The position numbers were made by a program, and so were the translations under genes. Of a stretch of DNA of 36,035 nucleotides, positions 8,880-36,035 are shown piece after piece (position 1 is the stretch's first letter; each line of letters begins with the position of its first letter). The DNA comes from Clostridia bacterium (lineage in GTDB: Bacteria > Bacillota > Peptococcia > Peptococcales > BICA1-8). The stretch is from NCBI GenBank assembly GCA_030154225.1, contig JASKKI010000020.1:1-36035 (forward strand), read 5' to 3'. The notes below the pieces were generated by a model that saw only the letters and a list, made by a program, of their open reading frames with translations, searched no databases and was not told the origin of the DNA.

Positions 8880-9316
8880 CGACAATTACCTCCTTTTAAT
8901 AAATTGAAATATCTAAATAATTTTTCCCTTAATAATATATTGTCAAATATTAATGTTTTTAAGCAATTTTGTAGTTATTATATTATTACTAATTATTGTT
9001 TACTAATTACAATTAGCTTAAAATTTTTAAAAGTATTACAGGATTTTTGATGTTTAATAATATTGGCTATATTGGTAAATGGTTGATAAAGTTTTAAAAG
9101 TGAATAACCTTTTTTAGCATGATAATAGGGATTTTCTGCGCCCACCAATTATCTGCTATATCGCTGTTGGAAGTTTTTGTACAAATGGGAAGTACATACA
9201 TATTAATTCGTTCTTTGTAGAATATTAAAGCAGTAGGATTCTTTAAAATGAATTAATGGATGAAAGAAGTTTGATTGAGGGCTGAGCCAAGTAAGAAGGT
9301 ACGAGGAGATGGAAAA
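8880..9316. other. AT-rich divergent intergenic region, no gene seen
   Basis: A 437-bp gap between the divergent HtrA and germination genes. On the minus strand TTGACA (8946-8941) could be a -35 box for htrA, but no good -10 follows at the normal distance. A 10-base direct repeat TTACTAATTA occurs at 8986-8995 and 9000-9009. A 33-codon ORF from 9119 has no ribosome site and is not credible. No RNA gene was recognised. Confidence 0.6.
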
Positions 9317-22284: not shown

Positions 22285-24110
22285 CTATTTTTTGATAAAA
22301 AAATTCTTAAGATGGATTAACAAACTATCATCTGGGTTTTGGGTAATTGCTTTATTATAAAGATTGCCTAAAAAATCAAACATTAAACTGGATACACGTA
22401 CATACACACTAGGATCATTAGTCTCTTCTATTTTTTTTATTATTTCGTCTAATAATTCTATACTCTCTATATCACAGCCAATTTTATTAATAGTATCAGC
22501 AGCGATACATAAATTGTCATAAGAGTCTAAGTTATTATTTTGCAAATAGTGTAAAACACTGCCGGCACCAAAAAGTTTAATAATTAGCTTAGTTAAAGGT
22601 GGGATAGCAAAGGATTTCCCCTCAGGGTGGTGGGCAGCGGCAAAATATTGCTCTAGGCACTTATCATACTTTTTTTGTTTTAAATATATTTCAGCAAGGC
22701 CACATTGGGCTAAGTAGCTACCAGCTCCTGGTAGGACAATATACTTTTCCCAGGAAGCATCCCCCAGCTCTAAACACTGAGTAAAATAATCTTTTGCCTC
22801 TTCTAATAGATCAAGTTTAAGATTACAATACCCTTGCAAGTAAATAATATTAGTGAAATGAAAATAATTATATCTTGCTTGGTCAGCCAGTTGCAAAGCT
22901 TTAGTAAATCTACTTAATTTTACGAGGCAGGTAATAGCTTTATACCATAAGCTGGCTGGGGCTTGATAGTTAGATATTTTTAAAGCTTTGTCCAAGTGGG
23001 CTAAGGCTACTTTAAACTTATCTACTTTCATAAACTCATAACCCATGGCCTCATAAACGGAACTATTCTTACCTATATTTTTAAAATCTTGAACAATAAG
23101 GGATACATTTCTTTTAAAATCAGGTGTTTTTAAGTGAGGTTTTAGTATAGGACCATAATCAAAGATAGTAACAGGTATCCAGCTAAGATCATTATTATTA
23201 TGCTGCTCTAAAATGGATTTTTCAATATCCTCCAGTAAACAGGATTGATAATACAGCTTTTTATTATTACGAAAAATTTTACATACTGCTTCCTCCTGGT
23301 ATAATGCCCAATTATTTTTATCAAAAAAAGTTTTTACTTTGACCATGTGTCCCAGTGTTGAAGCATTATTTAAGTATTCTACTATTTTAGGAATATCAGC
23401 CTGATTTAATTCCTGATCACCGTTTAAAAACATTATCCAGTCACCTGATACTTGTTTAAGAGCAAAGTTTCTTATTTTTGCAAAGCTGTTATCCCAGTTA
23501 AGACGGTAAATATGTGCCCCCATTTGGTAAGCAATGCTCAAAGTATTGTCACTGGCGCCTGTAGTGAACAACATTATTTCATCTGCTAACTCACCTATAC
23601 TGGCTATACATTTCGCAATATTTTTTTCTTCATTATTGGCTAAAATACATACACTTAACTTAAATTTTTTATTTTTTAAACAAATAAATTCTTTGAATGA
23701 TTCTAACAACTGAAAGGGTTTTTGTCCGAAGATTGTTCCTTCTGCAGGGTAGTTTAAGTTTATTTGAGAAATTCTTTGAGACAATTCAATACTTTCTTTA
23801 GCTAAGGAAAAACGTCCACATCTTATATGACAGGCAGCTTCTAGAAGATATAAATCACTATAGTCGGGGTATATATTTTTAAAATAGGCTAACTGATCCA
23901 GTGCATCTTTATATCTTTTCATTTCTATTAAACAAACAATGGTTTTATTTACTAAAGGAGGAGCGTAACCAGCAGTGGAACTGGTCACCTTTAAGGCTGC
24001 AATAAATTTTTCTAAAGCCTCTTGGAATTGCCCCTTTCGTATATTCTCTATACCCAGGTTATAAAGTAAAAATCCATCTTGGCCTTGAGAATTATCTTCC
24101 TGTTCTTTAA
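22285..24110 (-). pseudogene. 5'-truncated TPR-GT2-TPR glycosyltransferase with degenerate catalytic motif
   Basis: The leftward frame is open to 24195. The recognisable protein begins about residue 30 with EQEDNSQGQDGFLLYNLGIE, a TPR block (about 40-150). A GT2 domain follows (about 178-350: LSVCILANNEEKN, DEIMLFTTGASDNT), then more TPR helices. Canonical GT2-TPR proteins of this cluster start with the GT2 domain, so the leading TPR block looks like the tail of a lost first GT2-TPR unit. There is no ribosome site before the ATG at 24195, and its first 29 codons are antisense to the neighbouring ORF. In the GT2 domain VDTGS is replaced by FTTGA and the DXD site by NGD (258-260), so activity is doubtful. 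I read it as a truncated, decaying gene. Confidence 0.7.
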
Positions 24111-24114
24111 TTTG

Positions 24115-24435
24115 TACAATGTAGCATTTACTACTAATCCATATCCTACTATTTCCTATTCTTTTGATACTCAGCTTAAATATGCTTACATGCAAAATGG
24201 TACGACATTCGAGGAGTTCTGTACTATATTAAATCAATCTAGATCTATAACTTTTGATTCTGGTACAACTCTTTGCTGTGGAAATTCCTATACCATGACT
24301 TCTTCCTGGACTTGTGACCACTCAGCCATTACTACAACATCCACCAGTGTTTCAGCTCCATATACTTTTTCTTTTACAATCAATGATTTATGTGCCCAAA
24401 CAATTATTTGTGTTGATGATACTACTTGTCCATAA
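24115..24435 (+). pseudogene. 5'-truncated ORF for a Thr/Ser/Cys-rich surface-type protein
   Basis: The frame reads from about 24115 (YNVAFTTNPYP) through GTTFEEFCTILNQSR, DSGTTLCCG and SVSAPYTFSFTIN to a stop at 24435. Composition (many Thr and Ser, seven Cys) suits an extracellular beta-rich protein. The codons before 24115 are merely antisense to the glycosyltransferase remnant, no ribosome site precedes any in-frame ATG, and a good terminator follows, so this is the 3' end of a longer gene cut at the junction near 24110. The ending shows faint likeness to the orphan protein at 27987-28475. Family not recognised. Confidence 0.55.
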
Positions 24436-24614: not shown

Positions 24615-26168
24615 CTATTCCTCCCATTTAATTAAGTTAGGATTAGGATCTAGGATTGATTGGTATTGTTCCAAAATTCCATACTTACCTTCTGGGTCTA
24701 GCTCCATATATCGTTGGTATTTTTTCTGCCTATCTTCAGGAGTGGCCCAGCCGTAGTGTTTTACTCTAAGGTGGCTCACTACACCGGGAAGGTCACCTAC
24801 ATTAGCGGGAAATCTACCACAGTGGAGGGGGGAGTCCTGCCACTTGTATAAGAAATTAGGTTGGTATCTCACTAAAAAAATACGGAAATATTTATGAGCT
24901 TCCCAGTATTTATTCTCTCTATAATGGTTAGTATCCCAAAAGTCATAAAGACGAAAAGCATAGTAGTCATAATAAGGCTGATTAATTAATAGCCTTATAT
25001 CATTTATAATTTTATTTTCAAATAATTCATCGGCATCCAGGTTCAGTATCCAGTCTGGATTTGTACCTATAGTTAAATCCCACTGCTGTCTCCGTAAATT
25101 TATTTCATTATTAAAGCCCGGTGTTTCATTAGATACTATTTTAAGTGGTATTTGGCTTAAAATGTTTTTACATAATTCCACAGTATTATCTTCACTGGCA
25201 TCATCTAAGATCACCGCTTCATCTATATACTGAGCAGCATGTTTTAAAACCTCAGGTAAGTATCTATTAGCTTCATTTCTTACCAGCATAGAAAGTGTTA
25301 ATTTATTTTTTTGTGATTTAGTATTACTACGGGCTGAGATAGCACCATAAGGATAGAAACAATTCTTTAAAGATAGTTTATATTCTTTTAATCCCTTTAG
25401 TTCTGCTTCTCGATAGATATGATAAGCAGGGTAAAAAGTATCTACGTATAATCGAAACCCTAAAGCATTTGCCCTGATACAAAAGTGTCTATCCTCTCCC
25501 CAAAAGCTTATGTTAGTAATTTCTTTAAAGCAAACTCCTGCATCTAGCGCATTTTTACTTATTAATGTACATGCACCCAAGCCTCCAACTTCATATACAC
25601 CGGGTATTTGTAAGCAGTGTAAAAAACCATTTATTCTGCTGTTAGCTTCTTCTTGGGACAGCTCCTGGTTTCTATAACGAAAGAAAAGGTTGTATTGATC
25701 ACAAATCCATACTTGTGGTAAAGGAGGAAGATCAGGCTTCCATTTAGTCCAAAAAATCTCTGAAATAATATCTTTTTTTGCTGAAACTAAATGTACAAGT
25801 GTATGGGGGTGGAGGATTAGGTCCGAATCAACAAGGAATAAATAATCATAATTATTATTTTTAGCAAACTCAATAATATGATCTTTATATTGGGCTACTT
25901 TCCAGATCAGAGCTTCTTTCCAGTGGTGACTTTCCTCATCACAAACATACACACTTACTTGCTCTCCATCAATAATATGAACTTCTGCCTTTTCAGGACT
26001 AAATTCTTGTAAAAGTATTTTAGATTCTATTAACTCATTATCATCTACAAACATAAAATCAATAGTTATATTTCCTTTCTCAAGGTGTTTTAATCCTTCT
26101 AAAAATTCCGCTAAAATAGCTGGTTTTTGCCGTATTGGACTACCTATTAAAACTTTATATTTACTCAT
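24615..26168 (-). CDS. Two-domain glycosyltransferase (GT-A + GT2)
   Basis: A 517-residue protein with two nucleotide-sugar transferase domains. The N-terminal domain (about residues 1-260) has FLVDSDLILHP with DSD at 114-116 and a GGLGACTLISKNAL / WGEDRHFCIRA acceptor-side region like Anp1/GT-A enzymes. The C-terminal GT2 domain (about 288-500) begins LTLSMLVRNEANRYL, has AVILDDASEDNT and the metal site LNLDADELF (378-380). No signal peptide or membrane helix. Start ATG is close behind AAGGAGGT. A sigma-K-like promoter lies 40-65 bases upstream. Two transferases in one chain suggests consecutive sugar additions to one acceptor; sugar and acceptor are unknown. Confidence 0.88.
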   Translation of the reverse strand: MSKYKVLIGSPIRQKPAILAEFLEGLKHLEKGNITIDFMFVDDNELIESKILLQEFSPEKAEVHIIDGEQVSVYVCDEESHHWKEALIWKVAQYKDHIIEFAKNNNYDYLFLVDSDLILHPHTLVHLVSAKKDIISEIFWTKWKPDLPPLPQVWICDQYNLFFRYRNQELSQEEANSRINGFLHCLQIPGVYEVGGLGACTLISKNALDAGVCFKEITNISFWGEDRHFCIRANALGFRLYVDTFYPAYHIYREAELKGLKEYKLSLKNCFYPYGAISARSNTKSQKNKLTLSMLVRNEANRYLPEVLKHAAQYIDEAVILDDASEDNTVELCKNILSQIPLKIVSNETPGFNNEINLRRQQWDLTIGTNPDWILNLDADELFENKIINDIRLLINQPYYDYYAFRLYDFWDTNHYRENKYWEAHKYFRIFLVRYQPNFLYKWQDSPLHCGRFPANVGDLPGVVSHLRVKHYGWATPEDRQKKYQRYMELDPEGKYGILEQYQSILDPNPNLIKWEE

Positions 26169-26206
26169 TGTACCTCCTTAAAATTAAATTTTTTCTAATT
26201 CTTAAT

Positions 26207-26233
26207 TATCTTATGCGTGAGGAAATAAAATGT
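26207..26233 (-). promoter_or_regulatory. Sigma-K-like promoter for the two-domain glycosyltransferase
   Basis: Read on the minus strand: AC (26233-26232), 16 bases, then CATAAGATA (26215-26207) preceded by G, matching the sigma-K consensus (AC N16-17 gCATANNNTA) fully. Start of transcription would be near 26199, about 30 bases before the ATG. Confidence 0.55.
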
Positions 26234-26254
26234 AACCGGCTTAAAATTCTTGTA

Positions 26255-26282
26255 ACCAATGTACTAATAAAAACATATAAAA
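26255..26282 (+). promoter_or_regulatory. Sigma-K-like promoter for the methyltransferase-glycosyltransferase pair
   Basis: AACC with AC at 26255-26256, 17 bases, then CATATAAAA (26274-26282). The -35 and spacing fit sigma-K; the last two bases of the -10 are AA rather than TA. It lies about 60 bases upstream of the GTG at 26342. Confidence 0.4.
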
Positions 26283-26341
26283 AATTAACTCGACTTATTA
26301 ATAACAAAATATTGCAAATTTTAAATAGGAGAGGAAGAAAA

Positions 26342-27067
26342 GTGAGTACCCAAAAAGATATATGGGATAGTATTTGGTCAAGAGGTATAGAACTTACTTG
26401 GGACGATTTATCAGAGGAGATTTATCAGTGTCTATTAAAAGAGACTCAAGGGGTTAAAGGAAAAAAATTAATTGAAGCAGGCTCAGGTACAGGACGTATA
26501 TCTTTACGAATGGCTACCGAAGGAGCTTCTGTAGTGTTAGTTGATTATTCGGAAAAGGCTTTAAAAAATGCGCAAGGGCTTTTTTCTAAAATAAATCAAA
26601 AAGGAGATTTTATACTTGCTGATATTATGAATATGCCTTTAAACAATGAAACAGCTGATATTACATGGAATGCAGGAGTATTGGAGCACTTTACTCTTTC
26701 TGAGCAGGTAAAGGCACTGGAAGAAATGAAGAGAGTTACAAAAACAGGAGGATTGGTTATTAGTTTAAATCCTAATGCAGGTTGTTTCCCGTATCGAATG
26801 GGGAAATATATTGCAGAACAAACTGGAAAGTGGCCTTATGGCATTGAAGATCCTGTTTCTTCATTAGTTCCTGTAGCTCGTAAAGCCGGTCTTAATGTTA
26901 TCCGAGAATACAGCATTGGTTTTATTAATGCTCTAGATTTTCTTATTTTCCTTCCTGGAGGACAATACCTGCAGAACGAAATGATAAATTTTTTTCAAAA
27001 CTTATCTACTGAAGAACAAAAGCTATTCCCTGGTTATCTCCTGGTATCAGTTATGAAGCGGCTATAA
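26342..27067 (+). CDS. Class I SAM-dependent methyltransferase
   Basis: A 241-residue methyltransferase of the Methyltransf_11 type. Motif I is KLIEAGSGTGRISLRMA, followed by VVLVDYSEKAL (acidic ribose-binding residue), ILADIMNMPLNNETADITWNAGVLEH and EEMKRVTKTGGLVI, all in the usual order. The GTG at 26342 is well placed behind AGGAGAGG and a sigma-K-like promoter; the frame continues upstream to an ATG at 26213, but that lies inside the divergent promoter and lacks a ribosome site. The next gene, a glycosyltransferase, starts 16 bases after its stop, so sugar O- or N-methylation of the surface glycan is a reasonable inference. Confidence 0.88.
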   Translation: MSTQKDIWDSIWSRGIELTWDDLSEEIYQCLLKETQGVKGKKLIEAGSGTGRISLRMATEGASVVLVDYSEKALKNAQGLFSKINQKGDFILADIMNMPLNNETADITWNAGVLEHFTLSEQVKALEEMKRVTKTGGLVISLNPNAGCFPYRMGKYIAEQTGKWPYGIEDPVSSLVPVARKAGLNVIREYSIGFINALDFLIFLPGGQYLQNEMINFFQNLSTEEQKLFPGYLLVSVMKRL

Positions 27068-27083
27068 AAGGGGGAGTTTTAAA

Positions 27084-27944
27084 ATGCGGTATGTAGTACA
27101 TACAATTCCTTTTTTAACTAGAAATGAAGATGATTTAACCTTAGCAGATATATGCTTTAGAAGCCTGGCTAATTCTAGCCCGGGGGCCTCTGTTGTTTTA
27201 TATAATCAGGGTTTTTTGACTAATGGAGAATTAAGGGAATTTCTAAAAGATTACCAATTAAGATTTCATATTATTGGTGAAGGAAAAAATGTAGGTATTG
27301 CCCAGGGTAGGATGGCTTGTTTTCAATATATCTGGTCATATCTTCCTAATATTAAGTATATTTCTGAAATTCATGTAGATATGTTTTTTCCAAAAGGATG
27401 GGTAAAAGCCTTAGTAGATTTTATGGATGAAAACAAAGATGAACCCATGATTTGTCCGGGGATATTGACTTCAAGAGGTGAACTCCATCCCGAAGACAAA
27501 GGGAAGAGGGCTATAACAGAGATACCTTTTCCTGATCCGACTAAAATGAGTAGTCTATTATTTAATCTAACTAGTGATAAGGTACTAGAAGGATTTGTCC
27601 ATCCTGTTTTACATCGGTCAGAGGTTTTACAGGCAGTGGATGGGTATGATACCAGATTTTTAAAAGGAAAACAAGGGTATGAAGATGATAGTCTTCTCTT
27701 GGGTTATAGGTATTATATAGGGCTTAAAAATAATTGGAAGCCTAAATGCTTCATGGGAGTTAGAGTCTATCATGCCACTCTAGCACAAAGAACAAGTTTA
27801 GATAATATACAACAGGAGTTTGATAAAAATTTACAAGGACTAGTTTATCAGTATGGTGTAAAAGGATTGCAAGAATTAACTCAAATATATAAAGATAATC
27901 AGCATTTTAAAATGGTAATTGAACATTTACTTGGACAGATATGA
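27084..27944 (+). CDS. GT-A fold glycosyltransferase
   Basis: A 286-residue glycosyltransferase. It begins with VVHTIPFLTRNEDDLTLADI, has GKNVGIAQGRMACFQYIW in the nucleotide-binding part, EIHVDMFFPKGW with a DXD-like site, a later SEVLQAVDGYDTRF and GYEDDSLLLGYRYY with the acidic ED pair, and RVYHATL at the end, all in the order seen in GT2/GT-A enzymes. No TPR repeats, no membrane helix. It follows the methyltransferase gene by 16 bases and is very likely co-transcribed. Donor and acceptor are unknown. Confidence 0.82.
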   Translation: MRYVVHTIPFLTRNEDDLTLADICFRSLANSSPGASVVLYNQGFLTNGELREFLKDYQLRFHIIGEGKNVGIAQGRMACFQYIWSYLPNIKYISEIHVDMFFPKGWVKALVDFMDENKDEPMICPGILTSRGELHPEDKGKRAITEIPFPDPTKMSSLLFNLTSDKVLEGFVHPVLHRSEVLQAVDGYDTRFLKGKQGYEDDSLLLGYRYYIGLKNNWKPKCFMGVRVYHATLAQRTSLDNIQQEFDKNLQGLVYQYGVKGLQELTQIYKDNQHFKMVIEHLLGQI

Positions 27945-27986
27945 AAATTAATCTGAGCCAATTTTTAAGTAACTAGTCAAATTTTT

Positions 27987-28475
27987 TTAATCAAATATTC
28001 GTATTCCCCTTGTACTCATGAAAGGTGCTTTAATTTTCACATCATGTTCCGTAGTATCTTTATCATCTGTTGAATTTTTTTTCATAAATTTTTTACAGCT
28101 GGGTCCTGTGATAGTTCCAGTATGGAAATGATCTGTTTTAACTATAATAGGAATTTGAGTTTTCTCATAACAGCCTTTTAATGTAAAGGAGTAGGTTCCA
28201 GTAACATTTTCATTATTTAGATTTATCCATTTAATTATCGGGGGTAATGAAGAAAAGCCGGGTTTACCTGTATCTACTGAAACAGTAGCGGGTCCTGTAC
28301 AGGCTAAAACAAGAGGGCTAGGATCTGCACAAAGTACAAAAAGTAACTGTTTTATTTCAGGATTAGGGTTGTTTGTTTTTGAGATGGTATAAGTCCAGGT
28401 TTGTGATTCATTTGTATTATTTACAACACTTATCAAGCTAATTGTGTATTTGGCAAGTATAATAGAATCGGGCAT
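27987..28475 (-). CDS. Orphan Cys-containing, beta-rich protein, candidate surface protein
   Basis: A 162-residue protein I do not recognise. The N-terminal two-thirds (ILAKYTISLISVVNNTNE, TWTYTISKTNN, LLFVLCADPSPLVLACTGPA, GTYSFTLKGCYEKT) alternates polar and hydrophobic residues as in a beta-sandwich and has four cysteines. The tail is basic and polar (CKKFMKKNSTDDKDTTEHD). No signal peptide is seen, as usual for spore coat or exosporium proteins made in the mother cell. The ATG has a GGAG about 9 bases upstream. It is alone on the minus strand inside the glycan island; no sigma-K-like box was found upstream of it. Confidence 0.7.
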   Translation of the reverse strand: MPDSIILAKYTISLISVVNNTNESQTWTYTISKTNNPNPEIKQLLFVLCADPSPLVLACTGPATVSVDTGKPGFSSLPPIIKWINLNNENVTGTYSFTLKGCYEKTQIPIIVKTDHFHTGTITGPSCKKFMKKNSTDDKDTTEHDVKIKAPFMSTRGIRIFD

Positions 28476-28605
28476 AAAATTCCACTCCGGAATCTAATTA
28501 TTTTCTTACCATAAACATATTCCTCCAAACATATTTTCATGTGGGTTTTAAATATAATTTTTAAATTTGTACAAACTCTTAACTAACTTTAAAAAGTATA
28601 GAAAA

Positions 28606-28633
28606 ACAAAATAGTAGAGGAACGCATAAGATA
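28606..28633 (+). promoter_or_regulatory. Sigma-K-like promoter for the DNRLRE protein gene
   Basis: AC at 28606-28607, 17 bases, then CATAAGATA (28625-28633), preceded by G: a full match to AC N17 gCATANNNTA. The start would be near 28641, giving a leader of about 125 bases. The -10 is also the left arm of an 8-bp inverted repeat (GCATAAGA 28624-28631 / TCTTATGC 28647-28654). Confidence 0.55.
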
Positions 28634-28764
28634 TAATAAAAAAAATTCTTATGCATTTTTTGTTGTTTTAAAAAAAACTTTCTTTAAAATAGGCAACTTC
28701 AAAAATCACTCTATTTAAGTCTGCAAGTAGTAAACTACTTTGTTTAAGAGGAGGGGGGAAGTAT

Positions 28765-29592
28765 ATGGCAGTTGTATATTTATCTCCAGAGTCTGATACT
28801 TATGTGTATAATCAATTACCTGCTGATAATTTTTCTACAGCAGCATTATTATATGTAGGATTTTCAAAGCCTGATAATATTTATCGTTCATATATTAAAT
28901 TTAACCTGAGTGATATCCCCTTTCCAGCCTTTATAAATAGAGGTATTCTGCGTTTATTCCTTTGTACAGATGAGTTGAATTTTACCAAATGTATTGATGT
29001 TCATCGTATTGTCTCCCCTTATGATGGAAAAACCTTGACTTATAATACACAGCCTGAATTTTTACCCAACTATGAATCAAGTGTCGTATTACACAAAGAA
29101 AAGCCCCAATTTAAAGAGTGGAATATTACTGAATTAGTAAGAGGGTGGCATTCCGGGGGGATAATTAATAATGGAATACTGCTAAAGTTAAGAAGTGAAA
29201 AAAAACCTAGCCTGACAGCTTTCTCTTCCCAGGATTGTGGATATAGCCCTAATGTGCCCCTTTTATTAGTAGAATATTGTAATAAAGAAATATTTAGCGT
29301 TTCTACTACTTATACAGCTACTACAACACCAACTTTTACTAACGCCTTCAATACTTTCTGTTATAAAATGGTTAGCTTTTTTATCATTAATCATGGCTGT
29401 AGTGATGTTACTGCCTCTGTGGAAGTAAGTCCTGACTGTGTGAATTGGTATGAAGAAGATAATAAAAAGACTGTTGGTTCAGGGAAAACTACTGTATTGG
29501 TTCCTTATGTTTTTGGAAAATACAATCGTCTAAAATTTTTTGCTGCCAGTGGCAGTGCAAGAATTGAAATTTATTTGCAGGGACAGGGATAA
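28765..29592 (+). CDS. DNRLRE-domain protein with C-terminal DUF6385-like module
   Basis: A 275-residue structural or carbohydrate-binding protein. Residues 1-165 fit the DNRLRE domain: VVYLSPESDTYVYNQLPADNFST at the start, SYIKFNLSDIP, GILRLFLCT and EWNITELVRGW. After a Thr-rich linker (STTYTATTTPTF) the C-terminal module (about 200-275) has VEVSPDCVNWYEE, VLVPYVFGKYNRLKF and ARIEIYLQGQG. This matches the C-terminus of the next gene's product and resembles DUF6385 as I remember it. No signal peptide. GAGGAGGGG precedes the ATG. It probably helps form a spore or cell surface layer; that is inference from context and promoter. Confidence 0.8.
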   Translation: MAVVYLSPESDTYVYNQLPADNFSTAALLYVGFSKPDNIYRSYIKFNLSDIPFPAFINRGILRLFLCTDELNFTKCIDVHRIVSPYDGKTLTYNTQPEFLPNYESSVVLHKEKPQFKEWNITELVRGWHSGGIINNGILLKLRSEKKPSLTAFSSQDCGYSPNVPLLLVEYCNKEIFSVSTTYTATTTPTFTNAFNTFCYKMVSFFIINHGCSDVTASVEVSPDCVNWYEEDNKKTVGSGKTTVLVPYVFGKYNRLKFFAASGSARIEIYLQGQG

Positions 29593-29639
29593 CTTTAACA
29601 TTTAAAAAAAAACTGGGTAAAACTTAAAGTATATAAATA

Positions 29640-29667
29640 ACATCTTATTATTACGTATCATAAATTA
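29640..29667 (+). promoter_or_regulatory. Sigma-K-like promoter for the DUF6385-type gene
   Basis: AC at 29640-29641, 17 bases, then CATAAATTA (29659-29667): a full match to the sigma-K pattern. Start near 29675, about 30 bases before the ATG. It lies only about 50 bases after the previous gene, with no terminator between. Confidence 0.55.
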
Positions 29668-29704
29668 TAATAGAGGGAAAAAGTAAGGGGGGTGTAATTT
29701 TTAT

Positions 29705-30313
29705 ATGCCAAACTTTCATATTTTTAACGTGGAAGCATCAAATTTAAGGACTCAGATCTATGGTAGTGAAGCTAGTACAGCATTAAAAACAGATACCGGT
29801 GGTATGCTACAGATTAGAAGTATCTCTGACATAGTATCTGTCAATAATGATACACCTGCAAATCTAAAAACTCAGATTTATGGTAGTGATGTTACTTCAG
29901 CTATGAAGACAGACGCTGATGGTGCTTTATACATCAGAAATATATCTGATACTATTAATGTAAGTGGTACTGTTACTGCCACTACTTCTCAATCCTTTAA
30001 CGAATCCAATAACTCAGATGTACCGACTGGCGATGCATTTACTGCATTAACTGCACAGGACCTTGCCCAAGTAGAACAATATTCCTTTGCAGTATATAAC
30101 CAAATAGCCAGTGGAAATAGCTGTGATATTAAGGTGGAAATCAGTCCAAACAATACCGACTGGTTTACTGATATCTCTTCTAGAACAATAACCGCTGGTT
30201 CCATGGATGTCTTTGTCCCTAGCCGCTGGCTCCGGTATGCACGGTTATCTTATAAGTCAACTTCCTCTGGTCTGGCAACTACTATTGATGTTTATTTCCA
30301 ATATCAAAATTAA
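29705..30313 (+). CDS. DUF6385-type protein with N-terminal tandem repeat
   Basis: A 202-residue protein. It begins with two 40-residue repeats (residues 13-52 and 53-92; shared core TQIYGS...KTD...G.L.IR.ISD). A Ser/Thr-rich stretch (VSGTVTATTSQSFNESNNSD) follows, then the C-terminal module (about 120-202) with YSFAVYNQ, VEISPNNTDWFTD, VFVPSRWLRYARLSYKS and TIDVYFQYQN. That module is homologous to the end of the preceding protein. No signal peptide. Ribosome site AAGGGGGGTG. Its low-complexity Ser/Thr stretch is a plausible site of glycosylation by the neighbouring enzymes, but that is inference. A strong terminator follows. Confidence 0.75.
   Translation: MPNFHIFNVEASNLRTQIYGSEASTALKTDTGGMLQIRSISDIVSVNNDTPANLKTQIYGSDVTSAMKTDADGALYIRNISDTINVSGTVTATTSQSFNESNNSDVPTGDAFTALTAQDLAQVEQYSFAVYNQIASGNSCDIKVEISPNNTDWFTDISSRTITAGSMDVFVPSRWLRYARLSYKSTSSGLATTIDVYFQYQN
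29741..29965 (+). repeat. Tandem coding repeat, 120-bp period
   Basis: Two units starting at 29741 and 29861, encoding N-L-(R/K)-T-Q-I-Y-G-S segments. By eye 20 of 34 aligned residues are identical, and several stretches such as ACTCAGAT.TATGGTAGTGA are conserved at the DNA level. Confidence 0.8.
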
Positions 30314-30322
30314 CTTATTTTC

Positions 30323-30347
30323 AAAGCAGTTCTGCGGAACTGCTTTT
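30323..30347 (+). terminator. Terminator after the DUF6385-type gene
   Basis: Perfect 10-bp stem AAAGCAGTTC / GAACTGCTTT with tetraloop TGCG, then TCC. The stem is 7 bases before the end of a short T-run; it lies 10 bases after the stop codon. Confidence 0.85.
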
Positions 30348-30491
30348 CCTTATCTAACGTAAAGAAGTAGAGAGAAATCTTAATCTAGCCAAGCCAAATC
30401 TACAAAATTTTCTGGGTATTTTCATCTTATTATTATGTAAAGCTTACCAAAACGTTACTTAAATATTAGTAAAATAAAACTATTGGTACGC

Positions 30492-30519
30492 ACAGCTTTT
30501 TACTGTTTCGCATAAAAAG
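30492..30519 (+). promoter_or_regulatory. Possible sigma-K-like promoter for the GT2-TPR pair
   Basis: AC at 30492-30493, 17 bases, then GCATAAAAAG with CATA at 30511-30514. The -10 lacks TA at the expected last position (TA occurs two bases later), so this is a partial match. Start would be near 30527, about 25 bases before the ATG. Confidence 0.35.
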
Positions 30520-30550
30520 TATTATAGTAGCTAAATATGGGGGTAATATT

Positions 30551-32557
30551 ATGCCTGAGTTGAGCGTTTGTTTAATAACAAGGGATGAAGAAAAAAATAT
30601 TTTTCGCTGTTTAAAAAGTATACGAAATATAGCCGATGAAATAATACTAGTTGATACGGGGTCGAAGGATAACACCCTAAATATAGCTAAAGAGTTTAAA
30701 TGTAGAATTTTTCAAATCCAGTGGCAGGATGATTTTAGTGCGGCTAGAAATTTTGCCCTGGATAAAGCGGTAGGTGAATGGATTTTAATAATAGATGCAG
30801 ATGAAGAATTTCGAAAAGAAGATGAAAAGGCACTAAAAGATTTATTAGAAAATCCGGTGGCCGAAGGTTATTTTGTGCAAATTTTAAATAGCTTGGAACA
30901 CAATCAAGTTTTGAAACATAGGGCGGTGCGACTTTTCCGTAATAGACCTGAATACCGTTATACCGGTCGGATACATGAACAAATAGCCCCTGCTATTCTT
31001 AAAAAAAATCCTCAATCCCTCTATAGTTCACCAATAAGATTTATTCATTTTGGCTATAATCAAGATGCTGTTATTAATAAACAAGAGCGTAATATAAAAA
31101 TTTTAATAAGAGAATTAGAAGAAATGCCAGAGGAGCCTTTTACTCTTTTTAACCTAGCTACTGAATATTTTATTATGGCCGATTATGCAAAAGCTGCAGA
31201 AAATTATGAAAAAGCTAAACAGTTTTCTTTTCAGGAACAGCCTTATCATGCTACCATATCCCGAAATCTTGCTATTACCTATTTAAAGCTCAAAGAATAT
31301 AAAAAATGTAAAGAATTAATTGCTCAGGGAATAGAATGGTACCCTGATTATACCGATATGTATTATTTACTAGGTAGTTTAAAAGCTGACCAAGGTTTTT
31401 TAGATGAAGCTTCTGAGATTTTTAAAAAGTGTTTAGAATTGGGAGAAGTAGAACATTATACATCTACTGACGGGGTCGGAAGCTTTTTGGCTTTGCAGGA
31501 GTTAGCTAAAGTTTTAGAAAAAAAAGGTAATTATCAGGAAGCCTTAGCAGCTTATATCCAGGCAATAGCTTATGAGCAGGTTAAAGAAAGGGCTATAGAA
31601 AAAATTCCCCCATTAGTAATTCATACTAGAAAAAAAGATATATTAAAAGAAATCGAAGATCTAGGCTTAAATGCTCAGGAGTATCTTTTTTTAGCTGATA
31701 ATTTTGCTTATTGGGAGAATTATTCCATTAGTTTAGAGATTCTCAATTACTTCACTCAGAACGATTTCATCAAATTTTTTAGAGTCCATTGTCTACTTCA
31801 CCAACAAAAATTTAATGATGCTTTAATAGAGTTAAAACAGATTACGACTCCTCCTGATCCTGTAGCATTCTGGAGTAATGTTTTCTTATGTGCTTGCGGC
31901 TTAAAGGATGAAGAATTATTTACTAAAAGTATAAATCATTTAGAAAAAATAATAAGTTCTGAACAAATACAGGTATTTAAAGATTTAGTAGCTGCCGAAG
32001 AAAAAGAAAGGTTTTTTAATTCACCAGCATATTTAACTGAGTGCTGGAAGATATTAAAAGAATTTATTAATCTTAATTTAGATGAATGGTTCAATAAGGC
32101 TGTAAATTTAGCAAGGCCGATAAAAGAATTTGAGACGTTGTTTTTAGTAGTAAATATATTATGGAATCAGGCCAGTCCACTAACAGAAGAGTATCTGAAG
32201 AAAATTAATCAGGAAGATAAGGTCTCCTTATTAACAATTATTGAAGCTGATTTAAAACTAGAACAGGGCAATTTTGAGCGAGCCTGGGAGCTTTTTAATT
32301 TTGTGGCTAATTTACTACCTGATGATGATTTCATCAAAACCGGAATTTCCCTTTCCGCTCTCAAACAGGCAGATAAGTTAGGTAAGGAGGCTTTAAAGAG
32401 GTTTAAGGATTCTGAGCTTATTGATGAGAGAGTAAAAATTATTGAAGAGGAAATGCCTCTTTTAGAGGACAAATATAAGTTTTTACGGTTGAAGAGGAGG
32501 AAAGAAAATGACGTTCTCCAAACCCTTCTTAACTCTTTGTATGATAACCAAAAATGA
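30551..32557 (+). CDS. GT2 glycosyltransferase with TPR repeats (SunS-like layout), paralogue 1
   Basis: A 668-residue protein. The N-terminal GT2 domain (about residues 1-225) has LSVCLITRDEEKNIFRCL, EIILVDTGSKDNTL, the DFSAARNFAL segment, the metal site IDADEEF (Asp82-Asp84) and GRIHEQI, all intact. From about 195 onward the chain is alpha-helical with TPR-type repeats (FNLATEYFIMADYAKAAENYEKA, YYLLGSLKADQGFLDEASEIFKKCLEL and others). Such enzymes often glycosylate proteins or peptides, the TPR part binding the acceptor. Cytosolic. It overlaps the next gene by 50 bases, so both are co-translated. It has a partial sigma-K-like promoter. Confidence 0.9.
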   Translation: MPELSVCLITRDEEKNIFRCLKSIRNIADEIILVDTGSKDNTLNIAKEFKCRIFQIQWQDDFSAARNFALDKAVGEWILIIDADEEFRKEDEKALKDLLENPVAEGYFVQILNSLEHNQVLKHRAVRLFRNRPEYRYTGRIHEQIAPAILKKNPQSLYSSPIRFIHFGYNQDAVINKQERNIKILIRELEEMPEEPFTLFNLATEYFIMADYAKAAENYEKAKQFSFQEQPYHATISRNLAITYLKLKEYKKCKELIAQGIEWYPDYTDMYYLLGSLKADQGFLDEASEIFKKCLELGEVEHYTSTDGVGSFLALQELAKVLEKKGNYQEALAAYIQAIAYEQVKERAIEKIPPLVIHTRKKDILKEIEDLGLNAQEYLFLADNFAYWENYSISLEILNYFTQNDFIKFFRVHCLLHQQKFNDALIELKQITTPPDPVAFWSNVFLCACGLKDEELFTKSINHLEKIISSEQIQVFKDLVAAEEKERFFNSPAYLTECWKILKEFINLNLDEWFNKAVNLARPIKEFETLFLVVNILWNQASPLTEEYLKKINQEDKVSLLTIIEADLKLEQGNFERAWELFNFVANLLPDDDFIKTGISLSALKQADKLGKEALKRFKDSELIDERVKIIEEEMPLLEDKYKFLRLKRRKENDVLQTLLNSLYDNQK

Positions 32558-34445
32558 AGAAGAAAACTTACCCAGGGCTTTAGATAGTGTACAGGGTTTG
32601 GTAGACGAAATAATTTTAGTTGACACAGGCTCGGAAGATAAAACACTGGATATAGCTCTTCAATATGGTGCTAAAACATATGTTATTCCTTGGCAGAATG
32701 ACTTTTCACTAGCCCGCAACTATGCTTTGGACCAGGCACAAGGAGAATGGATTCTTTTTTTAGATGCCGATGAAGAATTGAAAAATACAAACCTCGATTT
32801 GAAGAATTTTTTACAAAATTCTATAGAAGAAGGTTTTTTCTTAAAAATTATTAATATGTCAGAAGACCAAAATATTCTTAACAGTTTTGCCTTCCGGTTG
32901 TTTCGTAATAATCCTTTATATCGTTATGAAGGAAAAATCCATGAGCAAATTTTAGCAACAATTGAGCGATTAAAGCCCAATGCTGTAATTAATTGGTTGG
33001 ATATAGAAATATATCATTATGGTTACCTGGAGACCCAGGTTAAGACCAAAAATAAAGTGCAAAGAAATTTAGATATTTTATTAAATCAAACCCCCGAAAT
33101 TAAACAAACCTCTTTTTACTGCTTTAACTTAGGCATGGAATATTTAAGGCTTGGGGAACTTAGCGAAGCAGAAAAATGGTTGCAAGCAGGCTGGGAAAAG
33201 GTTGATACTAATCTAAGTTTTGCCCATCGTCTAGTTTTAAAATTAATTACCTGCCTATTCTTACAAGAAAAGTATGAAAAAGCTGTTTTGTACTGTCAAA
33301 AGGGAGAAGAATATTATTGTGATTATGCCGATTTATATTATTATCATGGGGCATCATTAATACAAATGGGGAAATTTGGAGAAGCCCGTAGTGTGTTAAA
33401 AATTGGTTTAGATAAAGGTAAAAGTCCGAGACATTATATTTCGGAAGCAGGTTGCGGTACTTATCTTAATTTTGAAGCTTTAGGAATTGTAGAAGAAGCC
33501 CATTTAAATTTTAACCTAGCAACTGATTATTTTTGGCAGGCACTTAAATTACATCCTAATGATAGCTATTACTTACAGCTTTTCTTAAGGAATTTAGTAA
33601 AAAGTGATTCTAATATCAGTGAATATTTAAAAAAATTAACATTTTTAAGCCAAGATGTTATACAAATAGGAGCGGAGTTTTTATTTAAGCTGGGTAAATA
33701 TACTATTGCCATTGAATTATTGGAACTCAAAAAAAATAATCAATCTAATTTTAGAACTCTTTTGAAAGCAAAAACCTATCTTATGTTGGGTACTCATGAT
33801 AAAGCTTTAGAACTATTACAAACTATTCCCGATGACATCGATTTAAGGAAAAAGGTAGTTTTTTATATCTGGATTATTTATTGGTTGCAAAATGATTCCC
33901 AGTTAGCAGAAGAACTTTTGCCAGAGATGAATGCACTTGATGCTGGGGTAGGAAAATTATTGGGTGAATTGCAGGAATACTTAAGTTCAGGAGTTTTAGA
34001 AAATTTTCAGGTTGAACTTTTAAATGAAGAAAAAAACATAGATTTAGTACTAAGTATAATTGAAGCCATTGCTGCTGTTTTAGGCCCTTCGGAACTTTTA
34101 GAAAAAGTAATTAGTCTTATAGAACAATTTGCAGATAAAAAGGTATTAACCAGTATAGCCAAATTACTTTATAAGCAAAAATTATATCCAAATTCTTTAA
34201 AATTTTTTCAAGAAAAAAATTTGAAATTCCTGGATATTGAGGCGATATTAGCTTTTATAGATCTTTTAGGAAATAAAGACCCTGTTTTAACAAATAAAAT
34301 CGTAAAAAATTTATTAGAACAAAATCCTAAATTAGCTAGAGGATATTTAATGGGCATGGATCTGTGGTTAAAAAACGCGGGAAAAGCAAATCTCCAAATT
34401 CAGAAAAAAATTGATTTACTCCGAAAAATACCACCAATATGCTAA
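32508..34445 (+). CDS. GT2 glycosyltransferase with TPR repeats, paralogue 2
   Basis: A 645-residue paralogue of the preceding protein. GT2 motifs are intact: LTLCMITKNEEENLPRALDS, EIILVDTGSEDKTLDIA, NDFSLARNYAL, FLDADEEL (Asp86-Asp88) and GKIHEQI. TPR-type helices follow (FNLGMEYLRLGELSEAEKWL, YYYHGASLIQMGKFGEARSVL and more). The ATG at 32508 lies behind GAGGAGG inside the end of paralogue 1, a 50-base overlap in another frame, which implies coupled translation. A terminator follows. Neither donor sugar nor acceptor can be told; the surface proteins encoded just upstream are the nearest candidates. Confidence 0.9.
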   Translation: MTFSKPFLTLCMITKNEEENLPRALDSVQGLVDEIILVDTGSEDKTLDIALQYGAKTYVIPWQNDFSLARNYALDQAQGEWILFLDADEELKNTNLDLKNFLQNSIEEGFFLKIINMSEDQNILNSFAFRLFRNNPLYRYEGKIHEQILATIERLKPNAVINWLDIEIYHYGYLETQVKTKNKVQRNLDILLNQTPEIKQTSFYCFNLGMEYLRLGELSEAEKWLQAGWEKVDTNLSFAHRLVLKLITCLFLQEKYEKAVLYCQKGEEYYCDYADLYYYHGASLIQMGKFGEARSVLKIGLDKGKSPRHYISEAGCGTYLNFEALGIVEEAHLNFNLATDYFWQALKLHPNDSYYLQLFLRNLVKSDSNISEYLKKLTFLSQDVIQIGAEFLFKLGKYTIAIELLELKKNNQSNFRTLLKAKTYLMLGTHDKALELLQTIPDDIDLRKKVVFYIWIIYWLQNDSQLAEELLPEMNALDAGVGKLLGELQEYLSSGVLENFQVELLNEEKNIDLVLSIIEAIAAVLGPSELLEKVISLIEQFADKKVLTSIAKLLYKQKLYPNSLKFFQEKNLKFLDIEAILAFIDLLGNKDPVLTNKIVKNLLEQNPKLARGYLMGMDLWLKNAGKANLQIQKKIDLLRKIPPIC

Positions 34446-34453
34446 ATACATAT

Positions 34454-34480
34454 AAAAACTGGCTATCTGACCAGTTTTTT
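34454..34480 (+). terminator. Terminator after paralogue 2
   Basis: AAAAACTGG (34454-34462) pairs with CCAGTTTTTT (34471-34480) around an 8-base loop (CTATCTGA); the right arm merges into the T-run. Confidence 0.85.
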
Positions 34481-34488
34481 ATGTTGTC

Positions 34489-34516
34489 ACTACTTATAAA
34501 TAAAATGCATATTTAA
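34489..34516 (+). promoter_or_regulatory. Possible sigma-K-like promoter for paralogue 3
   Basis: AC at 34489-34490, 17 bases, then GCATATTTAA with CATA at 34508-34511. The final pair is AA instead of TA, so a partial match. It sits just after the terminator and about 50 bases before the ATG. Confidence 0.4.
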
Positions 34517-34561
34517 AAGTATGGTAGAAGTAAGAAATATAAGTGTTTAAGGAGTCTTATT

Positions 34562-36035
34562 ATGTTAAATCCTTCTTTAAGTGTATGTCTCATTGTAAAA
34601 AATGAACAAAAGTTTATAAGAAGATGTTTAGAAAGTGTTAAAGATATTGCAGATGAAATTATTATTGTCGATACAGGCTCTACTGATTCTACTTTGGATA
34701 TAGTTAGGGAATATGGGGCAAAGGTTATTGAAAGCCAATGGTGTAACGATTTTAGCTATAGTAGAAATTTAGGATTGGAGGAAGCCAAGAGTCAGTGGAT
34801 TTTAGTATTGGATGGTGATGAAGAACTATGTAAAGATGATATAAAGATACTAAAAGAAGCACTGCAAATGCCTTTTGAAGGCTATAACCTTTCTCTAATT
34901 AATTATATTGACATTAACCAATGTGATTACGTTACTGATTATGTGTGTCGGTTGTTTAAAAATAATAAATTATATCGGTTTAAAAATCGTATTCATGAAG
35001 AAGTGTTCTCAAATATAGTTGAAAATAACGTTAATGAAGTAGTAGGTAATTTACCGGTAAGAATTTTTCATTATGGGTATGTAAAAGGTATTAATCAGAA
35101 AGAAAAAAACACACGAAATCTAAAACTATTAGAATTACAGCTACAAGAATGTTCTGAAGAAGATAAGCCTTATTATCTCTATGCTTTAGGAGTAGAGTAT
35201 TTTCAATCAGAACAGTTTGAAAAAGGTGAAGAACTTTTAAGGTTGGCCCTAGCAGGTACTCCTGCATCTACTACCGGGTTCCGCAGTGATTGTTATTTAA
35301 AGCTTATACTATGTCAACTTAATAAGAGGGAATATTATTTGGTAGAGGAAATTTTTCAAAAAGCTTTAGAAGAATACCCGGATTTTGTTGATTTATACTT
35401 TTTACGGGGGCAGGTTCTATATAATCAATTGCGTTTTTCCAAAGCTTTAAGCTATTTCAATAAGTGTTTAGCCCTTCCTTTATTACCTAAATATACTTCT
35501 GCAGCAGGAATAAACAGTTATAGAGCTTTATACTTCAAAGGCATGTGTCATTATTATCTGGGAAATTTTGCGGAAAGTGAAAAATGCTTTGCTCACAGTA
35601 TTAAAATTGAACCCAGTTATTTTTTATCTTTTAAAAGCTGGGTAGAGGTAAGGGTTAAGCTTAATAAGCCAATTGACTTAAAGGGAGATATTTTCCAAAA
35701 AAATACTTTCTATCTAAATGAAACTAGGAAAATTATGTGGCGCAGGGGTAGATGGCAGGAAGCTCGTAGATTATGGAAAAAAAGGAGTATATTAACTAAA
35801 CCCTATTCCTGCTTAATAACAGGGGAGTGTAAAGGATGTATTAAGATACCTGAAGTTTCCCAGGAAGATTTAACTAGTATATTTTTTGCCTACTGGTTTA
35901 ATGAGGGATGGGTTAAAGTAGAAAAATTTTTAAACCTATGTCCATATATTGTTTCTTGGGAAATTTTTTTGCAGGAATTGATAGAAGCCTTAGCAATATA
36001 TAAAGATATGGAAAATCTCTGGTTTATCAGTCAGT
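34562..36035 (+). CDS. GT2 glycosyltransferase with TPR repeats, paralogue 3 (3' end outside window)
   Basis: An open frame of 491 codons running off the right edge. The GT2 domain (about residues 1-215) has LSVCLIVKNEQKFIRRCLES, EIIIVDTGSTDSTLDIV, NDFSYSRNLGL, LDGDEEL (Asp84-Gly-Asp86, a DGD form of the usual DAD) and NRIHEEV. TPR-type helices follow (YYLYALGVEYFQSEQFEKGEELL, DLYFLRGQVLYNQLRFSKALSYF, YFKGMCHYYLGNFAESEKCF). Around residue 425 there is a CLITGECKGC cysteine cluster not seen in paralogues 1 and 2. The ATG follows AAGGAG by 7 bases. It has its own promoter region after the terminator, so it is a separate unit. Confidence 0.9.
   Translation, partial: MLNPSLSVCLIVKNEQKFIRRCLESVKDIADEIIIVDTGSTDSTLDIVREYGAKVIESQWCNDFSYSRNLGLEEAKSQWILVLDGDEELCKDDIKILKEALQMPFEGYNLSLINYIDINQCDYVTDYVCRLFKNNKLYRFKNRIHEEVFSNIVENNVNEVVGNLPVRIFHYGYVKGINQKEKNTRNLKLLELQLQECSEEDKPYYLYALGVEYFQSEQFEKGEELLRLALAGTPASTTGFRSDCYLKLILCQLNKREYYLVEEIFQKALEEYPDFVDLYFLRGQVLYNQLRFSKALSYFNKCLALPLLPKYTSAAGINSYRALYFKGMCHYYLGNFAESEKCFAHSIKIEPSYFLSFKSWVEVRVKLNKPIDLKGDIFQKNTFYLNETRKIMWRRGRWQEARRLWKKRSILTKPYSCLITGECKGCIKIPEVSQEDLTSIFFAYWFNEGWVKVEKFLNLCPYIVSWEIFLQELIEALAIYKDMENLWFISQ

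Follow-up and report, generated by a model that had tools for sequence, protein, structure and literature searches.

The glycosyltransferase island at the right-hand end of contig JASKKI010000020.1, from the draft genome of a Clostridia bacterium, is probably a late-sporulation, mother-cell-expressed glycosylation module under sigma-K-type control that acts on proteins of the DUF6385 family assembled on the spore. The window analyzed here is the whole of this contig, 36,035 nucleotides in length and designated C17 in the 2.68-Mb assembly; genes are referred to by their lower coordinate, and features are collected in Table 1. The island comprises genes for a two-domain glycosyltransferase (24615), a methyltransferase (26342), a further glycosyltransferase (27084), two DUF6385 proteins (28765 and 29705) and three enzymes in which a GT2 domain is followed by TPR repeats (30551, 32508, and 34562).

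Promoter statistics were compiled over 1.89 Mb of the genome, in which 1747 open reading frames were called and 978 putative transcription-unit starts, each with intergenic space of 60 bases or more, were retained, gene starts being predicted mechanically. The original prediction, made from the letters of the window, listed six units preceded within 150 bases by AC-N16/17-CATA; all six sites are present where they were placed, the one before 28765 lying 159 bases away. It also allowed that some CATA hits would arise by chance, and this loose form is indeed not enriched, occurring within 150 bases upstream in 47 regions against 49.9 in mononucleotide shuffles; with its genome-wide count at chance level, it was dropped as evidence by itself. 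The strict form, AC-N16/17-CATANNNTA, is enriched (21 upstream regions vs. 6.1 in shuffles), and the three sites credited with the full -10 box, before 24615, 28765, and 29705, all carry it. A 12-mer, ACGCATAAGATA, is common to the 24615 and 28765 sites. Elsewhere in the genome strict sites fall mostly 53–90 bases 5′ of the start. Several of the genes concerned look related to sporulation, encoding YunB, a LysM/peptidoglycan-binding/BsuPI protein that matches the SafA domain, and a protein weakly matching the SipL domain; for others no clear connection of this kind is evident.

Upstream regions were also ranked with a scoring matrix that embodies the already known motif and was trained on sites outside the window (L013 was the sole relative included, making it essentially an own-genome matrix). 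Among the 978 starts, 29705 ranked 17th, 28765 20th, 26342 24th, 24615 30th, and 34562 35th, with 30551 (86th) and 27987 (405th) lower. The top 35 hold five of the island's seven consecutive starts and at most two from any other run of seven, and a single permutation out of 2000 gave clustering as tight as this. Dinucleotide shuffling region by region, which preserves AT-richness, gave p = 0.015 for 24615, 0.009 for 26342, 0.001 for both 28765 and 29705, and 0.009 for 34562, compared to 0.058 for 30551 and 0.41 for 27987. A motif no commoner here than in shuffled sequence or in upstream regions genome-wide had been named beforehand as grounds for abandoning the prediction; the strict form, the matrix ranks and the clustering each departed from chance. 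The near match noted before gerAA is located at 9181, as claimed, and was rejected as a sigma-K target, its rank of 221 of 978 indicating noise.

The three GT2-TPR enzymes each possess a DxD motif, which is missing from the otherwise similar protein encoded by 22285. The closest solved structures to 34562 are GmaR (22ao, 1.9e-34) and then SunS (7msn), and all three enzymes score 83–119 bits against the SunS equivalog TIGR04195, for which the cut-off is 350, making them relatives of SunS rather than SunS itself. Both candidate acceptors exceed the DUF6385 (PF19912) gathering cut-off of 26.8, with scores of 74.5 for 28765 and 96.4 for 29705. The latter consists of two N-terminal repeats and a C-terminal domain (residues 104–202) predicted by AlphaFold to be a beta-sandwich, with a predicted local distance difference test (pLDDT) of about 80 from a four-sequence alignment; it contains 24% Ser+Thr and no clear membrane segment. 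Across the island, membrane-type hydropathy over 19 residues was found in no protein except for a borderline stretch in 32508. Foldseek searches with the DUF6385 domain returned PirA, XepA, Ena1C (9t3p, E 4e-4, template modelling score 0.64 of target) and carbohydrate-binding modules (CBMs), and the modelled fold is too common to be diagnostic. The original prediction had also counted the 27987 product among candidates for the outer layers of the spore. This protein has no Pfam or NCBIfam match, no sigma-K-like site and no homologue in any of the 54 further genomes that bear DUF6385, its single paralogue lies elsewhere in its own genome, and its structure model is poor (pLDDT 45); a role in the programme is unsupported and it is left out for now.

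Of 398 genomes sampled from the phylum Bacillota, 55 carry DUF6385. The strict motif was found upstream in 10 of 35 oriented DUF6385 loci, the window's two included, against 0.32 in shuffles (the L145 and L156 rows among the 35 represent the neighboring GT2-TPR gene, not a DUF6385 promoter). The AC of these sites lies mostly at -49 to -77, and the carriers span seven genera, this one included. In addition to the ten, the DUF6385 gene of L156 is preceded by a strict site at -68, seen only in a first, unoriented pass, and in two species of one genus (L010 and L011) the divergent GT2-TPR gene has a strict site of its own. A genome-contig scan returned Hydrogenibacillus schlegelii only, in which the DUF6385 genes adjoin GT2-TPR genes and no strict motif was found upstream of them.

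Gene order is likewise conserved. The distance from DUF6385 to GT2-TPR genes is 1.5 kb or less in 17 of 36 short loci and about 10 kb or less in 25 of 28 whole genomes, where there are usually three in tandem; these counts come from match coordinates compared by eye, and the 28 genomes were picked largely for carrying a 24615-type glycosyltransferase. Homologues of 24615 (50–59% identity, full-length or nearly so) occur in many genera of Bacillota, mostly adjoining DUF6385 genes, and about 21 of the 27 genomes having this enzyme have it near DUF6385. The fullest match is found in a distant genome (G420, 2330215–2340146) and includes nearly every island gene: two DUF6385 genes, a 27084-type glycosyltransferase (65%), a methyltransferase (56% to 26342), a 24615-type glycosyltransferase (59%) and three GT2-TPR genes. 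In other DUF6385 clusters the second protein of the pair is often, like 28765, of the DNRLRE/CBM96-DUF6385 type.

DUF6385 is associated with spore formers, nearly every genome that bears it being SpoIVA-positive. Among genomes at least 90% complete, SpoIVA was present in 46 of 46 that were DUF6385-positive and in 307 of 356 overall (hypergeometric p 0.0007, ignoring the relatedness of genomes), and 0 of 14 control genomes, B. subtilis among them, had a DUF6385 match. The window itself contains gerA, and sigK is present in the genome as two halves that end contigs C14 and C24 and join in frame (...DKEGN/EITLIDVLGTE), each scoring below the curated cut-off since it is partial. Contig C18 overlaps the end of C14 by 99 bases, departs from sigK at the join codon and carries a gene for a 535-amino-acid serine-recombinase-like protein as well as phage-like genes. 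sigK is apparently interrupted by a skin-like prophage element, the layout of these contig ends being that known for the skin elements in sigK of B. subtilis and Clostridioides difficile (PMC5025042). The occurrence of three contig ends at sigK may mean that inserted and excised forms were both present in the sequenced DNA.

It can be envisaged that sigma-K-type promoters would turn on the acceptor genes 29705 and 28765 and the conserved two-domain glycosyltransferase gene 24615, and probably also the methyltransferase and GT2-TPR genes linked to them. GT2-TPR enzymes in the cytoplasm of the mother cell might dock DUF6385 proteins through their TPR part and transfer sugars from nucleotide donors onto Ser/Thr (or Cys) side chains, and the methyltransferase and the products of 24615 and 27084 might lengthen or cap the glycan. 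Once decorated, the DUF6385 proteins, which have no signal, could then assemble outside the spore as beta-sandwich building blocks. More tentatively, and with our confidence falling a little short of even, DUF6385 proteins may constitute a widespread class of endospore-surface building blocks, glycosylated and so far unnamed, that might form fibers or layers like endospore appendages (ENA), each with a dedicated array of three GT2-TPR enzymes and a two-domain glycosyltransferase, the array being a sporulation module common to many Bacillota families.

Several observations weigh against a dedicated sporulation module of this kind. About two thirds of the DUF6385 loci examined have no strict motif; in the island itself, 30551 has a weak promoter and the sites of 26342 and 34562 fall short of the strict form. 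DUF6385 was detected in none of the sampled genomes of the same family or the same order, and of 34 genomes with a 24615-type glycosyltransferase 15 have no DUF6385 and one, near-complete, has no SpoIVA (G074), so that this enzyme is not confined to the module. Furthermore, the -10 box is common to sigma-E, and the training set of the matrix includes the YunB and SafA families, which are sigma-E targets in B. subtilis. The prediction of one programme of glycosyltransferases, methyltransferase and DUF6385 proteins is nevertheless supported by the promoters, the conservation of the cluster and the link to spore formers, the weak site of 30551 excepted.

The choice of sigma factor turns on the -35 region. 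A mother-cell module run by the earlier factor sigma-E, or by both factors, would accommodate the strict motifs that precede the YunB and LysM/SafA-like genes of this genome, but is an unlikely alternative on the evidence of the DUF6385 promoters. In C. difficile, sigma-E and sigma-K have a common -10 and differ in the -35, which is ATA for sigma-E and AC for sigma-K (PMC3789822). Eleven CATANNNTA boxes lie 20–130 bases 5′ of DUF6385 genes and nine have AC at 16/17 bases, the sigma-K spacing, a pattern that, given this difference, favors sigma-K; the 24615 and 28765 sites, moreover, have no ATA at sigma-E spacing. By their -35 the sites are thus of the sigma-K (AC) rather than the sigma-E (ATA) kind, and to judge from sequence the factor acting on the island promoters is most likely sigma-K-type. 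The sigma-K pattern originally proposed is retained as regards the enriched strict motif and the AC, with the reservation that the shared -10 leaves the label dependent on the AC.

Two further explanations dispense with a spore-surface glycoprotein. That the island glycosylates vegetative surface, flagellar or S-layer proteins, its CATA sites being incidental, would agree with the function of GmaR, which among solved structures is the best relative of these GT2-TPR enzymes and is a flagellin O-linked N-acetylglucosamine (O-GlcNAc) transferase and anti-repressor of Listeria (PMC9638930), and with the 24615-type enzyme in the genome lacking SpoIVA. This is nonetheless very improbable: the island has no flagellar or S-layer gene, it holds fewer sigma-70-like sites than shuffled sequence does, DUF6385 genes of other genera are also preceded by the sigma-K-type motif, and among good-quality genomes DUF6385 is restricted to those with SpoIVA. 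Alternatively, the glycosyltransferases might build a spore polysaccharide to which the DNRLRE/CBM96 and DUF6385 proteins bind without being glycosylated, as could be supposed from CBM96 being a carbohydrate-binding family and from the CBMs among the fold matches of DUF6385. We consider this a minor possibility, as the family matches of the cluster include no Wzx/Wzy-type protein, undecaprenyl-sugar transferase or membrane-anchored enzyme, GT2-TPR relatives of known function act on proteins or peptides, and MPNF-type DUF6385 proteins have no CBM96 part. Glycosylation of DUF6385 proteins by a sigma-K-type module remains the best explanation of the island.

Sigma-K-controlled glycosylation of the spore surface is already known as such. 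The sps and cge genes of B. subtilis are sigma-K-controlled genes for crust or coat polysaccharide and, like the island, provide late mother-cell glycosyltransferases for the outermost spore layer; the gene sets differ, however, and include no DUF6385. In the SgtA-BclA3 system of C. difficile, the gene for an O-GlcNAc transferase acting on peptides adjoins that of its spore-surface acceptor (PMC7157674), and bclA3 is sigma-K-controlled (PMC3789822), an arrangement resembling the one proposed here. The cloning primer for SgtA encodes MITISLCMI, which resembles the N-terminus of the GT2-TPR relatives, a likeness confined to primer-encoded residues. The acceptor there is the collagen-like BclA with one glycosyltransferase, whereas the island combines DUF6385 with three tandem GT2-TPR enzymes, two other glycosyltransferases and a methyltransferase. 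GmaR and SunS (the sublancin S-glycosyltransferase) similarly have a GT2 domain followed by TPR-type helices, but their substrates are flagellin and a bacteriocin peptide, respectively, GmaR has an anti-repressor domain, and neither is a sporulation gene. Ena1C, Ena2A, and Ena3A (DUF3992) are endospore appendage proteins made late in the mother cell and located on the spore surface (PMC12921279). The Foldseek proximity of the DUF6385 beta-sandwich to Ena1C is generic, PirA, XepA, and CBM folds matching as well or nearly so; the Pfam search of island proteins gave no DUF3992 match, and no sequence similarity to Ena was found.

The original prediction knew of no description of a locus of this type, and none was found: no paper mentioning DUF6385 came to light, and DNRLRE and spores coincided in one paper only, concerning a phage, a provisional result to which subscription literature did not contribute. 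Spore surface glycans influence adhesion and dispersal, and most knowledge of them comes from the B. subtilis, B. cereus, and C. difficile groups. The island would represent a second type of spore-surface glycoprotein locus, one distributed widely in Bacillota, suggests a likely role for DUF6385, and offers testable enzyme-acceptor pairs.

Table 1. Coordinates and characteristics of the island and adjoining features within the window.
Feature	Coordinates	Strand	Details
GT2-TPR homologue without DxD motif, possibly inactive; peripheral	22285..24195	-	Pfam GT2 + TPR; sequence motifs
Two-domain glycosyltransferase	24615..26168	-	DSD motif in N half, GT2 domain with DAD in C half; Pfam PF00535/PF13704
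Putative sigma-K-type promoter of 24615-26168	26207..26233	-	AC-N16-CATAAGATA; AC 65 bases 5′ of gene; strict form
Weaker sigma-K-like site before 26342	26255..26282	+	ACC-N-CATATAAAA, without TA of CATANNNTA
Class I S-adenosylmethionine-dependent methyltransferase	26342..27067	+	Pfam PF08241
GT2-like glycosyltransferase without DxD	27084..27944	+	Pfam PF00535, weak
162-amino-acid Thr-rich protein, no family match	27987..28475	-	Programme membership unsupported
Putative sigma-K-type promoter of 28765	28606..28633	+	AC-N17-CATAAGATA; 159 bases 5′ of 28765; strict form
DNRLRE/CBM96 + C-terminal DUF6385 protein	28765..29592	+	Candidate spore-surface protein; Pfam PF24517, PF19912, NCBIfam NF033679
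Putative sigma-K-type promoter of 29705	29640..29667	+	AC-N17-CATAAATTA; 65 bases 5′ of 29705; strict form
MPNF-type DUF6385 protein, candidate glycan acceptor	29705..30313	+	Pfam PF19912 1e-27
Weak sigma-K-like site before 30551	30492..30519	+	CATA only
GT2-TPR glycosyltransferase 1 (DADEE)	30551..32557	+	Pfam GT2 + TPR
GT2-TPR glycosyltransferase 2 (DADEE)	32508..34445	+	Start overlaps end of GT2-TPR glycosyltransferase 1
Bidirectional terminator-like hairpin	34454..34479	+	Between second and third GT2-TPR genes
Sigma-K-like site before 34562, not strict	34489..34516	+	CATA only; further loose site at 34430
GT2-TPR glycosyltransferase 3 (DGDEE)	34562..36035	+	Gene cut by contig end

Some minor features were encountered in the course of this work. 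Glycosyltransferase genes, including a homologue of 24615, are flanked on phage contigs (L171 7857–9884; L173 7767–9099 and 9663–10430) by portal-like genes and others of structural appearance; on L171 each half of the 24615 enzyme has its own gene, the two being adjacent. A viral-contig scan with GT2-TPR gave no match. Within the window, an AT-rich inverted repeat (GCATAAG...CTTATGC) followed by a T run spans 28627–28655, its left arm holding the -10 box of the 28765 promoter, and could be either a leader hairpin or two overlapping signals. A strict sigma-K-type site lies 61 bases 5′ of a gene (L035 18889–19887) for a patatin-like protein that resembles, with a score below the cut-off, the phospholipase family of cyclic-oligonucleotide-based antiphage signaling systems (CBASS). 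In a 6.5 Mb genome, a DUF6385 gene lies near genes for small Ser/Thr/Gly-rich proteins (NVFN...NTFSAPG...) that by their look are further spore-surface candidates (L140 1–1034).

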